From assembly GCA_031255615.1 (NCBI GenBank), contig JAIRSD010000179.1, forward strand, positions 1 to 13,021: a stretch of DNA of 13,021 bases, given 5' to 3'. This stretch comes from Treponema sp. Its GTDB lineage: Bacteria; Spirochaetota; Spirochaetia; Treponematales; Breznakiellaceae. The translations under genes were made by a program, and so were the position numbers. Positions 3,624-10,727 of this stretch are shown in pieces. Under the pieces are notes generated by a model. The model made no database searches. It saw nothing but the letters and a program-made list of their open reading frames with translations, and had not been told where the DNA came from. Positions within the stretch are counted from its first letter, which is position 1; every line of letters starts with the position of its first letter.

Positions 3624-4352
3624 CTATCCCTGGAACAGGGGATGTCCGGCCCCCGCGAGCTTTTGCCAGGCGGCGATAAGGGCCTCCTCTCCGGGGGAGG
3701 GACTGTTCCCCAGGACCTCCCAGAGGAGGAGGCATCGCTCGTAATCCTCCCCGGTATCCACGGTGATCCGCAGGGAGGGCCCCTGCCAGGACCGAGGGGC
3801 CAGGGGGCGGTGAAGGAGAAAAAGCTCCGGACGGTTGTAGAGGTAGGGACAGACATGCTCCCGCTCCGGCCTGTCCGGGGATAGGGAGGAAGTCTCCCGA
3901 TCCGCCCTGAGCAGGGCCGCCGCCGCCACGGATTCCACCCCCGCGCCGTAGGGCAGCCCGCTGTAGGCCCCATAATCGGCCCCCAGGGCCAGGGCTTCTT
4001 CATTGATGGCGGCGGCGGCGGCGGCGAAGACAAAAGGATTGTCCCCGGTAGCCCGGATCACCCGGCCCAGGGAAAAACGGCGGATCGCCAGACAGTAGCG
4101 GCCCAAGACATCCTCCTTGGGGCCGGGGAAGAACAGAAAGCCCACCTCCTCCGCCAGGGGGCCGAAGGCCCCGGCGCAGTCCTGAGGGGAAGCCAGGATG
4201 TAGAGATCCGCGGGAATCCGCCTCAGGGCCTCCATGACCCGGTAGATAAGGGGCCTGCCCCCCAGGTGGAGCAGGGCCTTACCGGGAAGCCGGGCGGAAT
4301 CGAGCCGGGCCTGGAGCACCACCGCCGCGGGGCCGGAAGGGCCGGGGCGCAT
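3624..4352 (-). CDS. SpsF-like cytidylyltransferase (nucleotide-sugar activating enzyme)
   Basis: The 242-residue protein has the hallmarks of the CMP-sugar synthetase-like SpsF family, which transfers a nucleotide to a sugar acid or related sugar for surface glycans. Visible motifs are the N-terminal nucleotide loop VVLQARLDSARLPGKAL (11-27), GGRPLIYRVMEAL, DVLGRYCLAI (81-90), ATGDNPF (101-107, metal/substrate site), SGLPYGAGVES (131-141) and REHVCPYLY. The length is normal for the family. ATG 4352 overlaps the previous TGA by one base (TGATG) and has GGAGG seven bases upstream; a GTG three bases earlier is the alternative start. The stop is TAG. Residues 110-115 are a run of alanines encoded by a GGC tract. 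The next gene, an SpsG-like fusion, follows after 40 bases, the classic spsF-spsG pairing. The substrate is not determinable here. Confidence 0.85.
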   Translation of the reverse strand: MRPGPSGPAAVVLQARLDSARLPGKALLHLGGRPLIYRVMEALRRIPADLYILASPQDCAGAFGPLAEEVGFLFFPGPKEDVLGRYCLAIRRFSLGRVIRATGDNPFVFAAAAAAINEEALALGADYGAYSGLPYGAGVESVAAAALLRADRETSSLSPDRPEREHVCPYLYNRPELFLLHRPLAPRSWQGPSLRITVDTGEDYERCLLLWEVLGNSPSPGEEALIAAWQKLAGAGHPLFQG

Positions 4353-7152: not shown

Positions 7153-7191
7153 GTTGGGCGCATCCCCGGCCCGGGACCGGGCTGTCAAGGC
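7153..7191 (+). repeat. Modular hairpin element, copy A (conserved core)
   Basis: The core reads GTTGGGCGCAT, then a short GC-rich stem (TCCC...GGGA), then ACCGGGCTGTCAAGGC. The same two linkers surround a different stem at 10082-10127 and, inverted, at 8816-8770. Similarity to copy B continues downstream through a GGCTGCC segment near 7199, and the copy may extend to about 7300. Confidence 0.65.
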
Positions 7192-7301: not shown

Positions 7302-7496
7302 CCGGCAGGCTGCTTAGCCGAAAAACCCGGATATACGGATATAAAAAATTAATCGCAAAGTTACCAAAGGCGACAGGCGAAAAAGGCGCACAAAAGCCGG
7401 AGACAGGAAGCGCCCATTCATTCCTTCGCGTACCCTTGTGCGCCTTCGTTGCTTCCCTTCCGATTCCCGGTCATTCCGCTTATCCGGCGTTATGCG
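7302..7496 (+). repeat. Long direct repeat, copy 1 (upstream of the pyrophosphatase gene)
   Basis: This ~195-base non-coding segment starts CCGGCAGGCTGC and aligns almost end to end with 8398-8589, with scattered substitutions and few indels. Shared blocks include CCAAAGGCGACAGGCGAAAA, AAAAGCCGGAGACAGGAA and CCCTTGTGCGCCTTCGT. Within it AAGGCGCACAA (starting at 7384) and TTGTGCGCCTT (ending at 7446) form an inverted repeat. No protein is supported. Confidence 0.85.
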
Positions 7497-8397: not shown

Positions 8398-8589
8398 CCG
8401 GCAGGCTGCCTGGCCGAAAAACCAGATATGCGGATATAAAAAATCAACCGCAATATCGCCAAAGGCGACAGGCGAAAAAAGCGCACAAAAGCCGGAGACA
8501 GGAATCCCTTATTCATTCCTTCGTATACCCTTGTGCGCCTTCGTGGTTCCCCTTCCAATTCCCGGTTCTTTCGCTTACCCGGTAACGCG
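8398..8589 (+). repeat. Long direct repeat, copy 2 (downstream of the pyrophosphatase gene)
   Basis: This is a diverged second copy of 7302-7496 in the same orientation, starting CCGGCAGGCTGC and ending near GGTAACGCG. The internal inverted repeat is partly preserved as GCGCACAA/TTGTGCGC. Together the copies bracket about 900 bp that contain the AT-rich gene. Confidence 0.85.
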
Positions 8590-8687: not shown

Positions 8688-8816
8688 CCCGCGCAAGGGA
8701 TAGAGGGGTGCGGAGCAGCCACGCCGCGGGCAGGGCCGGAGCGCAGCGGAACCCCGGCAGCCAGAGGTCGCCTTGATAACCCGGCCTTTTGCGGCGGAGC
8801 CGTAAAAAATGCGCCC
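8688..8816 (-). repeat. Modular hairpin element, copy B (inverted)
   Basis: On the minus strand it reads GGGCGCAT (8816-8809), an imperfect stem with a TCC loop (about 8810-8785: TTTT..CGGC TCC GCCG.AAAA), the linker CCGGGTTATCAAGGC (8784-8770), a variable GC-rich middle, and CTCTATCCCTTGCGCGGG (8705-8688). The three linkers correspond to those of copy C at 10082-10175; the stems differ. Confidence 0.7.
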
Positions 8817-10081: not shown

Positions 10082-10407
10082 GTTGGGCGCATTTTTTTGC
10101 TTCGCAAAAAAACCGGGCTATCCGCTCTAACAAAAACCCTGCGGGTTTTTGTTCCGCTTCTATCCCTTGCGCGGGCGAACATCCGCATCCCTGCGGATGT
10201 TCGCCTTTCGCAGTTGGACGCACTCCGCGCTCCAATTCAAGTACCGGAAACAGCCGGCCTCCCTGCCGGCACAGCTCTCGCCTTCCTTGATCCGCCGCGC
10301 CCGCGGCGCGGCGGATCAAGGAATACCCCCGCCCCGGGGAGTTTCGCTCCGCGAAACCAAAACGCCGGGCGTTTTGATTCGGCCTCCCCGTCGGCGGAAT
10401 TCCGCCG
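10082..10407 (+). repeat. Modular hairpin element, copy C, with an array of at least seven stem-loops
   Basis: GTTGGGCGCAT (10082-10092) begins the element. Successive self-complementary stems are 10092-10112 (9 bp, loop TTC), 10129-10153 (11 bp, loop TGC), 10174-10205 (14 bp, loop TCCC), 10283-10323 (19 bp, loop CGC), 10341-10357 (7 bp, loop TCC), 10358-10376 (GGG centre) and the perfect palindrome 10392-10407. Weaker pairs lie at 10214-10235 and 10253-10270. Linkers CCGGGCTATCCGCTC (10113-10127) and CTTCTATCCCTTGCGCGGG (10157-10175) recur in copy B. No coding function is seen. Confidence 0.75.
10283..10323. repeat. Perfect 19-bp inverted repeat with a 3-base loop
   Basis: The arm TTCCTTGATCCGCCGCGCC (10283-10301) is exactly complementary to 10305-10323, with loop CGC. 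It is too strong and exact to be chance. There is no adjoining T-run on the plus strand, so a simple terminator is not obvious. Confidence 0.85.
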
Positions 10408-10641
10408 GAGTTGAATCGCCGGAACTCTCCTCCGGGGCCCCCTTAAAAACACCCCGCCGCGGCGAAAGAATATGCCTATGATGGGCCGCGGCGGCGGTAA
10501 ATTCTCAAAATACCGCCATATACAGCGTCTACATATCGCACATACCCTATATACAGCGCCGCATACGGATACATGAAAATCCGCCCCCTGGGAACAACCG
10601 CGATTCGCGGGGCATCAAAAAAAGGCCGAATAGCCGCGTAA

Positions 10642-10687
10642 AGCCGTTTTAAACGGCTGTTGTTCGAAAACTGAAGTTCTGAACAAC
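10642..10687. repeat. Two adjoining small inverted repeats
   Basis: AGCCGTTT/AAACGGCT (10642-10658) is directly followed by GTTGTTC (10659-10665) and GAACAAC (10681-10687). The second pair encloses a 15-base loop. Function unknown. Confidence 0.5.
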
Positions 10688-10727
10688 TCCATAAAAGGCG
10701 GCAATTTATAATAAATTGATGAAAACA

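Follow-up and report, generated by a model that had tools for sequence, protein, structure and literature searches.

The window, the whole 13,021-nt stretch of Treponema sp. DNA analysed here, contains one intact copy of a structured element (copy C) whose neighbours are a minus-strand gene with an AP_endonuc_2 (xylose-isomerase-like barrel) domain and a plus-strand MFS transporter gene (Pfam), as well as two incomplete copies, A and B (Table 1). An earlier note on this DNA had described three copies of a multi-hairpin element, the last at 10082..10407, with constant linkers and with stems that change but stay complementary. In our analysis the element starts at 10085 and ends at 10172, and 10173-10407 is a series of other hairpins outside it. 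At the level of letters the description is accurate: all three copies have the same linker GGGCGCAT, the CCGGGYTRTC linker is nearly constant, the P1 stems of the copies pair, and the further sequence common to B and C is the 17-mer TCTATCCCTTGCGCGGG. The number of copies needs qualifying, since A is truncated and B degenerate.

Copy C folds best on the minus strand, as a three-way junction of P0 (a 5-bp closing stem), P1 and P2, the last of which carries constant purine-rich loops and is capped by the variable hairpin S2. Within linker 3, CCC at 10164-10166 partners the GGG of linker 2, and TGCGC forms the 3' arm of P0. Folded alone, 10082-10430, a stretch that also includes hairpins outside the element, was much more stable than its shuffles (z -10.7 as DNA, -9.8 as RNA); the stretches of copies B and A showed no such excess (z 1.0 and -0.2). 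Copy B retains P0 and the basal P2 triplet, and its S2 slot is filled by another insert. The flank profile of 112 parsed copies shows an upstream preference for AATT(T). Behind TTGCGC there is little beyond a preference for G (104 copies with flanks long enough), and no conserved 3' tail was found in the flank profiles of the parsed copies.

Other repeats and a mobile gene are also present in the window. A second palindromic repeat (TGTTCGAAAACTGAAGTTCTGAACAAC-like) at 10643-10698 has matches in many genomes of the family of G004, a spirochaete genome considered below. Near copies A and B, at 7302-7487 and 8398-8582, a direct repeat of 166 nt (86%) adjoins one of 26 nt (92%), and 369-1244 is a transposase gene with rve and HTH_21 domains, presumably IS3-like.

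Table 1. Features of the element and its copies in the window
Feature	Position	Strand	Basis
Copy A, 5' part only: linker 1, short P1, variant linker 2 (CCGGGCTGTCAAGG); without linker 3	7153..7191	+	sequence
Copy B, degenerate: linker 1, imperfect P1, variant linker 2 (CCGGGTTATCAAGG), end of linker 3	8688..8816	-	sequence
Copy C, intact element: three linkers, P1 and S2	10085..10172	+	sequence; covariance model
P0 5' arm GCGCA, within linker 1 GGGCGCAT; partner 10168-10172	10087..10091	+	sequence; stem covariation
P1 variable hairpin, T7 GC-TTC-GC A7	10092..10112	+	sequence; fold; slot variable in 112 parsed copies
Linker 2, CCGGGCTATCCGCT; basal P2 triplet GGG at 10115-10117	10113..10126	+	covariation
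S2 variable hairpin, CAAAAACCC TGC GGGTTTTTG	10127..10153	+	sequence; fold
Linker 3, CCGCTTCTATCCCTTGCGC	10154..10172	+	parsed copies; covariation
Sub-threshold match to Rfam Flavo-1 (RF01705), P2 arm	10107..10181	-	30.4 bits, gathering 42, E 0.0012

Covariation of a three-way junction

We searched with a covariance model. It was trained on 17 elements, most from phage contigs and the others from one plasmid and genomes G126 and G044, with the window and the listed linker-pattern loci excluded, and it found copy C (minus strand 10172-10087, 54.5 bits, E 7.5e-11) as well as copies in other loci. Applied to 45 further loci, some of which hold relatives of training sequences, the model gave 64 matches in 39. 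It found none in the other six: L043 and L096 are chance hits, L236 and L250 are element-free sites, and at L140 and L161 a weak or truncated copy is visible by eye. Within the window, copy B was matched in the right place (8691-8814) at 9 bits and E 1.6, which is not significant and falls below a chance match at 3878-3959 (12.6 bits), and copy A was absent from the 22 matches up to E 10.

The closing stem P0 was seen from the flanks of matches to Flavo-1, an Rfam family discussed below, in spirochaete genomes, phages and plasmids, where the outermost linkers pair together. From P0 to P0 the 203 parsed copies measure 63-187 nt. At the base of P2 the two sides vary together (GGG/CCC, GCG/CGC, GTG/CAC, ACG/CGT), and under a pattern that ignores those positions this triplet is fully paired in 171 of 187 elements, against a mean of 120 and a maximum of 129 in shuffles. 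In the 180 elements that remain once 7 with fewer than two paired triplet positions are set aside, an element's own 3' P0 arm meets its partner before the P1 stem in 137 cases, and an arm taken from another element does so in 6.3%. Under a looser rule (at least 4 of 5 P0 pairs), the 203 elements include 18 distinct fully paired P0 types, a count that leans on this rule and contains a few doubtful types.

We then aligned 22 diverse, hand-chosen elements from spirochaetes, plasmids and phages, cut at the arms of P0 (alignment A2); these arms were picked for pairing, and kinship among the copies inflates all counts given here. In all five P0 pairs and two of the three basal P2 pairs both partners vary and pairing persists, with 100% of P0 cells paired. 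Over the named structure, 89.5% of cells are paired against 70.8% in shuffles, with double changes in 13 of 16 pairs, and whole-structure covariation is 0.466 against 0.129 in shuffles (0/500 reach 0.466) and at most 0.194 when the structure is slid. An inner P2 pair (columns 12/76, RNAalifold) is paired in 22/22 elements with four types, and only 71.8% of S2 helix cells are paired. Nineteen columns are invariant, and the constant core reads AGGGATnGnAGCGG ... AGCGGAnAGCCCG on the minus strand. Further genomic copies and covariation, whose absence the earlier note had named as counting against its reading, are thus both present. Its emphasis on structure, drawn from constant linkers and changing yet complementary stems, holds, and is strengthened by an additional stem: P0, formed by the outer linkers, covaries too.

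Variable hairpins on a constant scaffold

A pattern of linker 1, gap and linker 2 recovered at least 120 stretches from genome contigs. By record title, 115 of those listed belong to spirochaete-labelled MAGs, 3 to one Clostridiales Family XIII MAG and 2 to Cryobacterium and Komagataeibacter; this MAG series is, we assume, from termite guts. The last two stretches we take for chance, as they have no third linker and no model match. Exact three-linker copies number 32 in G004, 19 in G001 and 10 in G003; each of the remaining twelve records has between 0 and 5, and the reversed three-linker pattern has 0 matches in all 15.

We parsed 112 elements (the listed matches, the window and one viral locus). 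The linkers are constant, with CCGCTTCTATC in 86/112 and CCTTGCGC in 105/112, although the pattern itself demands near forms of them. The two slots, by comparison, hold 97 different fillings in P1 and 96 in S2. Uninterrupted pairing over 5 bp or more occurs in 94 of the 97 P1 fillings versus 24% for recombined halves, and in 49 of the 96 S2 fillings versus 6%.

In both genomes tested the two hairpins vary independently: mutual information between P1 and S2 types was 0.268 in G001 (shuffles 0.298, p 0.64, 33 copies) and 0.496 in G004 (shuffles 0.584, p 0.87, 26 copies), where types are 4-mer clusters and copy numbers of this size leave weak linkage possible. Plain whole-element copying would be expected to leave linkage, whereas swapping of arms among copies would not. 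Many copies in G001 have a common upstream segment of ~85-100 nt, which reads as no common ORF, and copies in G004 have one of ~23 nt (by eye).

Several elements depart from this plan. Four of the 112 (L018, L020, L059, L118) carry a third hairpin module (..AGG.TGCATGG.CGAGCAGC...CGACCAG) between CTATC and CCTTGCGC. At L084 and L103 a hairpin GGAGTTTG...CAAACTCCGAA sits inside S2 with an apparent ~11 bp duplication of the S2 arm around it (by eye), an arrangement that looks as if hairpins insert into hairpins. Long versions occur in single-contig genomes of the same phylum (L122-L125, L134; G188, G303, G046), those at L125 at the start of ORFs that appear RHS-like by eye. Clustered copies in G188 (8) and G303 (3) have a single orientation within each cluster.

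Pairing and orientation

G.T pairs are few in the conserved helices (2/220 cells, against 24/300 in 14 tRNAs from the fetched sequences), a comparison that leans because the choice of P0 arms favoured Watson-Crick pairs and each helix was ended at a double mismatch. P1, analysed in 105 of 107 distinct fillings with the same cut, is 98% Watson-Crick, with 12 G.T or A.C and 18 mismatches in 1035 pairs. S2 departs from this low-G.T rule, with 41 G.T (plus strand) and 14 A.C among 1023 pairs. Of the 41 G.T, 38 fall in two S2 types, one per stem (27 stems of the first type, 11 of the second); in the second type a bulged G may have shifted the register. The remaining 51 stems contain 3 G.T and 8 A.C in 670 pairs. 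Plus-strand wobble in S2 speaks against minus-only pairing there. As an indicator of strand, wobble asymmetry is not decisive (4 versus 8 in P1, 41 versus 14 in S2, with the S2 excess in two shared types).

Orientation relative to genes gave no support for a cis-regulatory or terminator role: among 112 copies, with ORFs of at least 100 aa, those between co-directional ORFs divide 21 versus 21, the remainder being 15 divergent, 9 convergent, 29 with a neighbour missing and 17 inside a long ORF (unused). Replication-strand bias judged by local GC skew is weak (44 versus 66, p 0.045, 110 copies).

Filled and element-free loci

Two loci of G004 have element-free counterparts in G405. At L231 and L236 the flanks are 91 and 93% identical and lie 490 nt apart in G004 versus 73 nt in G405, which lacks a 350-nt block that includes the element and another repeat. 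At L074 and L250 (flanks 87 and 92%) the spacing is 180 nt, element included, in G004 and 24 nt in G405. Each difference is a gain in G004 or a loss in G405. No target-site duplication was seen at either pair, and the extra blocks are composite, the L074 block having unconserved flanks. Like a MITE, the element is dispersed in many copies and is present or absent between relatives; its P0 arms are terminal 5-bp inverted repeats, but no duplication accompanies them at these two composite loci. Where L035 and G007 correspond (region ~86% identical), both genomes have recognisable linkers at one place, enclosing different hairpins; the G007 copy has mutated linkers and a degenerate look. Three other comparisons were set aside: in G384 the locus orthologous to that of the window has no element, and ~1.8 kb with another gene separates the flanks, G408 matches a single flank only, and L083 has flanks that are rearranged in relatives.

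Outside the spirochaetes, 1 of 398 sampled Bacillota genomes matches under strict filters, namely G003, with at least 11 matches. Its element-bearing contigs carry housekeeping genes (leuS, rsfS and nadD/yqeK on L032; ruvA, ruvB, queA and tgt on L046) in orders that we believe to be typical of Bacillota, and we take both contigs as clostridial. A 32-nt S2, TGTATCTTTTTTGCCTGCGGCAAAAAAGGATA, is exact in both G003 and the spirochaete G004, with a different P1. These MAG assemblies are fragmented and break at repeats, and the ORFs are mechanical calls.

Phages and plasmids

Carriers of the element comprise Spirochaetota contigs and those of one Bacillota MAG, Bacteroidota and Moraxella plasmids, and phage contigs. 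From 23 records picked for holding the element or a piece of it, and therefore giving no rate (17 viral, 6 plasmid), 22 match Flavo-1, the exception being a Vibrio plasmid, and 7 exceed the Flavo-1 cut-off.

Ten of the 25 listed viral elements follow the stop codon of a homologous gene, terL, at a distance of 2-77 nt and on its strand. The products of these ten genes share homology, with 22-60% identity in the pairs reported, and three of them have matches to phrog_2, a terminase large subunit family. In L001 another phrog_2 ORF has the element 44 nt away on its start side; the other listed viral elements lie elsewhere. When we examined the best 80 of 430 terminase relatives, 6 carried the element behind the gene, 5 of these on contigs already in the set; 5 of the remaining 74 have too little downstream sequence to judge, and L294 has an element elsewhere. 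The gap from terL to the next ORF (70 aa) is 372-635 nt in 7 of 8 measurable cases and 23 nt in L154. The site behind terL is favoured but sporadic, perhaps because of the long gap there. In the related phages L154 and L292 (78.7% identical in the region), P0 behind terL is kept, the S2 tip differs, linker 2 has a substitution, and both elements are without P1.

Among plasmids, L160 from B. fragilis and P. salanitronis pBACSA01, whose element is without the S2 arm, are alike from inside the element onward and unlike before it. The Moraxella bovoculi plasmid L187 holds three copies in repeated units (167-322, 2050-2205, 2392-2547). BLAST of the window copy against plasmids gave no match, and BLAST of the L145 element gave 32 plasmid records and 1 phage record.

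Relation to Flavo-1 and competing explanations

No Rfam family matches anywhere in the window at its gathering threshold. Below it, the P2 stem with its purine-rich internal loops aligns on the minus strand to positions 1-76 of the Flavo-1 model, so that the "unnamed structured RNA" that the earlier note had offered as one option does resemble an RNA family in this arm, one that already has a name. The likeness covers P2, its loops and the strand; the Flavo-1 model, which Rfam classes as an sRNA, lacks P0, P1 and the three-way junction itself. In a survey of 296 genomes of G001's phylum (strict filters, 15 candidates scored per genome), 26 genomes matched Flavo-1 at E <=0.001 and 11 exceeded the gathering threshold; 0 of 14 control genomes matched. 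Flavo-1 is named under "Most Abundant Small RNAs" in the review PMC9029176, and neither the Flavo-1 passages of that paper nor those of PMC9723704 describe a function, a three-way junction or mobility, though these may be in print elsewhere. Going by these passages, the core of the element was previously catalogued solely as an RNA family of no stated function.

The main rival to a DNA-level element is a structured RNA, in which one strand would be transcribed, fold and act in cis or in trans, copies being kept because the RNA works. Covariation and constant purine-rich loops on a single strand are what such an RNA would be expected to leave, its P2 arm is entered in Rfam as an sRNA, wobbles occur in S2 on the plus strand, and the element lies on the same strand behind terL in 10 viral contigs, though the gene-sense strand there is plus. 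According to the relevant passages of a F. psychrophilum transcriptome study (PMC9723704), several 5' transcribed regions overlap Flavo-1 hits, but hits fall indistinctly in sense and antisense and many are not in transcribed regions. That pattern, the rarity of G.U in P0, P2 and P1 and the even orientation between ORFs lead us to prefer an element acting as DNA; element-free loci and the single Bacillota genome among 398 also sit poorly with an RNA kept for its work, and we consider this explanation unlikely. A folded single-strand recombination site like attC, at which a putative recombinase joins or swaps DNA and the cargo is the flanks and not the element, would account for plasmids that resemble pBACSA01 only from within the element onward, for the repeated units of the Moraxella plasmid and for the unidirectional clusters of G188 and G303. 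Most compared copies, however, have no common flank beyond short repeats, and no integrase is tied to the element here. The R boxes of attC have the polarity RYYYAAC...GTTRRRY, the opposite of the arms GCGTT...AACGC. As described in part of PMC2727003, attC sites are likewise folded single DNA strands with conserved structure, variable stems and terminal structures and poor sequence conservation; each folds into a single hairpin, has R and L boxes plus extrahelical bases, and is used by IntI, whereas our element is a three-way junction with constant loops. We give an attC-like site little credence.

The earlier note had also suggested a REP-like mobile element, and of its three options mobility fits best given the filled and empty loci, the 1/398 Bacillota and the genome-typical stems; kinship with REP/RAYT was unsupported on testing. 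Spread by a Y1 transposase (RAYT/TnpA-REP) as part of a REP/REPtron family, perhaps of the Bacteroidetes subclass 2.6, would suit dispersed structured repeats, and the passages seen of PMC6006769 describe "atypical secondary structures" for this subclass, with genes flanked by structures that have copies elsewhere in the genome. Yet among the spirochaete-set genomes and G003, PF01797 matches occur in 14 of 22 element-bearing genomes and in none of the other 8, G003 included; all three linkers are found at 1 of 30 fetched Y1 loci (L264), and the flanks of the 112 profiled copies show no prominent GTAG or CGTC foot. The element's occurrence is thus not matched by that of Y1 transposases in these genomes; the Y1/REPtron link is not supported, and we regard it as highly unlikely. 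One genome, G012, has 47 mostly weak Y1_Tnp matches in 2 Mb, an unusual expansion. As far as the consulted parts of PMC3733652 and PMC6006769 go, REPs are also high-copy palindromic repeats, CGTC repeats being reported from Bacteroidetes and Spirochaetes, but a REP measures 20-40 bp, has a tagged end and is associated with a Y1 transposase. BOX elements of Streptococcus, in the portion of PMC3049150 consulted, have sequence-defined modules (boxA, boxB, boxC) that vary in number, and are AT-rich with terminal inverted repeats and target duplications; our element has a constant scaffold with hairpins that differ in sequence and no duplication seen, and we claim no sequence kinship. Intergenic palindromes with neither function nor mobiliser, perfected by template switching and spread by homologous exchange between copies, could produce P1 stems with 18 mismatches in 1035 pairs and the hairpin-rich stretch after copy C. 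They would leave unexplained the P0 covariation, the many copies in one Bacillota genome of 398 and the 19 columns of A2 invariant across spirochaete, plasmid and phage copies, and this account seems to us very improbable indeed.

Discussion

We regard it as somewhat probable that the element is short, mobile and non-autonomous, that it is recognised as a folded strand, and that its hairpin modules are interchangeable. A putative enzyme would recognise the folded minus strand, reading the junction and the constant loops, and for that reason P1 and S2 would be free to change as long as they remain hairpins. Within a genome the two arms may be swapped between copies via the constant linkers, by recombination, gene conversion or template switching, and their complementarity would be kept near-perfect at the level of DNA; no host function needs assuming. 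Several observations count against this reading: no mobiliser was found, Y1 transposases included; 10 of 25 viral elements lie behind terL on the same strand, which random insertion would not predict; the constant purine-rich loops on one strand look RNA-like; S2 departs from the low-G.T rule and pairs in 71.8% of its A2 cells; the strand bias against GC skew is weak; and no target-site duplication was seen, the L231 block including a second repeat. A bolder version, which we hold tentatively and think rather doubtful, is a mobile folded-ssDNA element whose arms are cassettes exchanged within genomes and across phyla and which is moved by machinery that is neither Y1 nor integron. Were this cassette version true, part of an Rfam RNA family would really be DNA.

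On the mobile reading, spirochaetes, a clostridial MAG, phages and plasmids would have a common mobile element, and it would offer a natural case of structured DNA that holds its complementarity during sequence turnover. On this evidence the orphan Rfam family Flavo-1 seems to be the central part of a larger, mobile piece of DNA, and annotations of it would then read differently.
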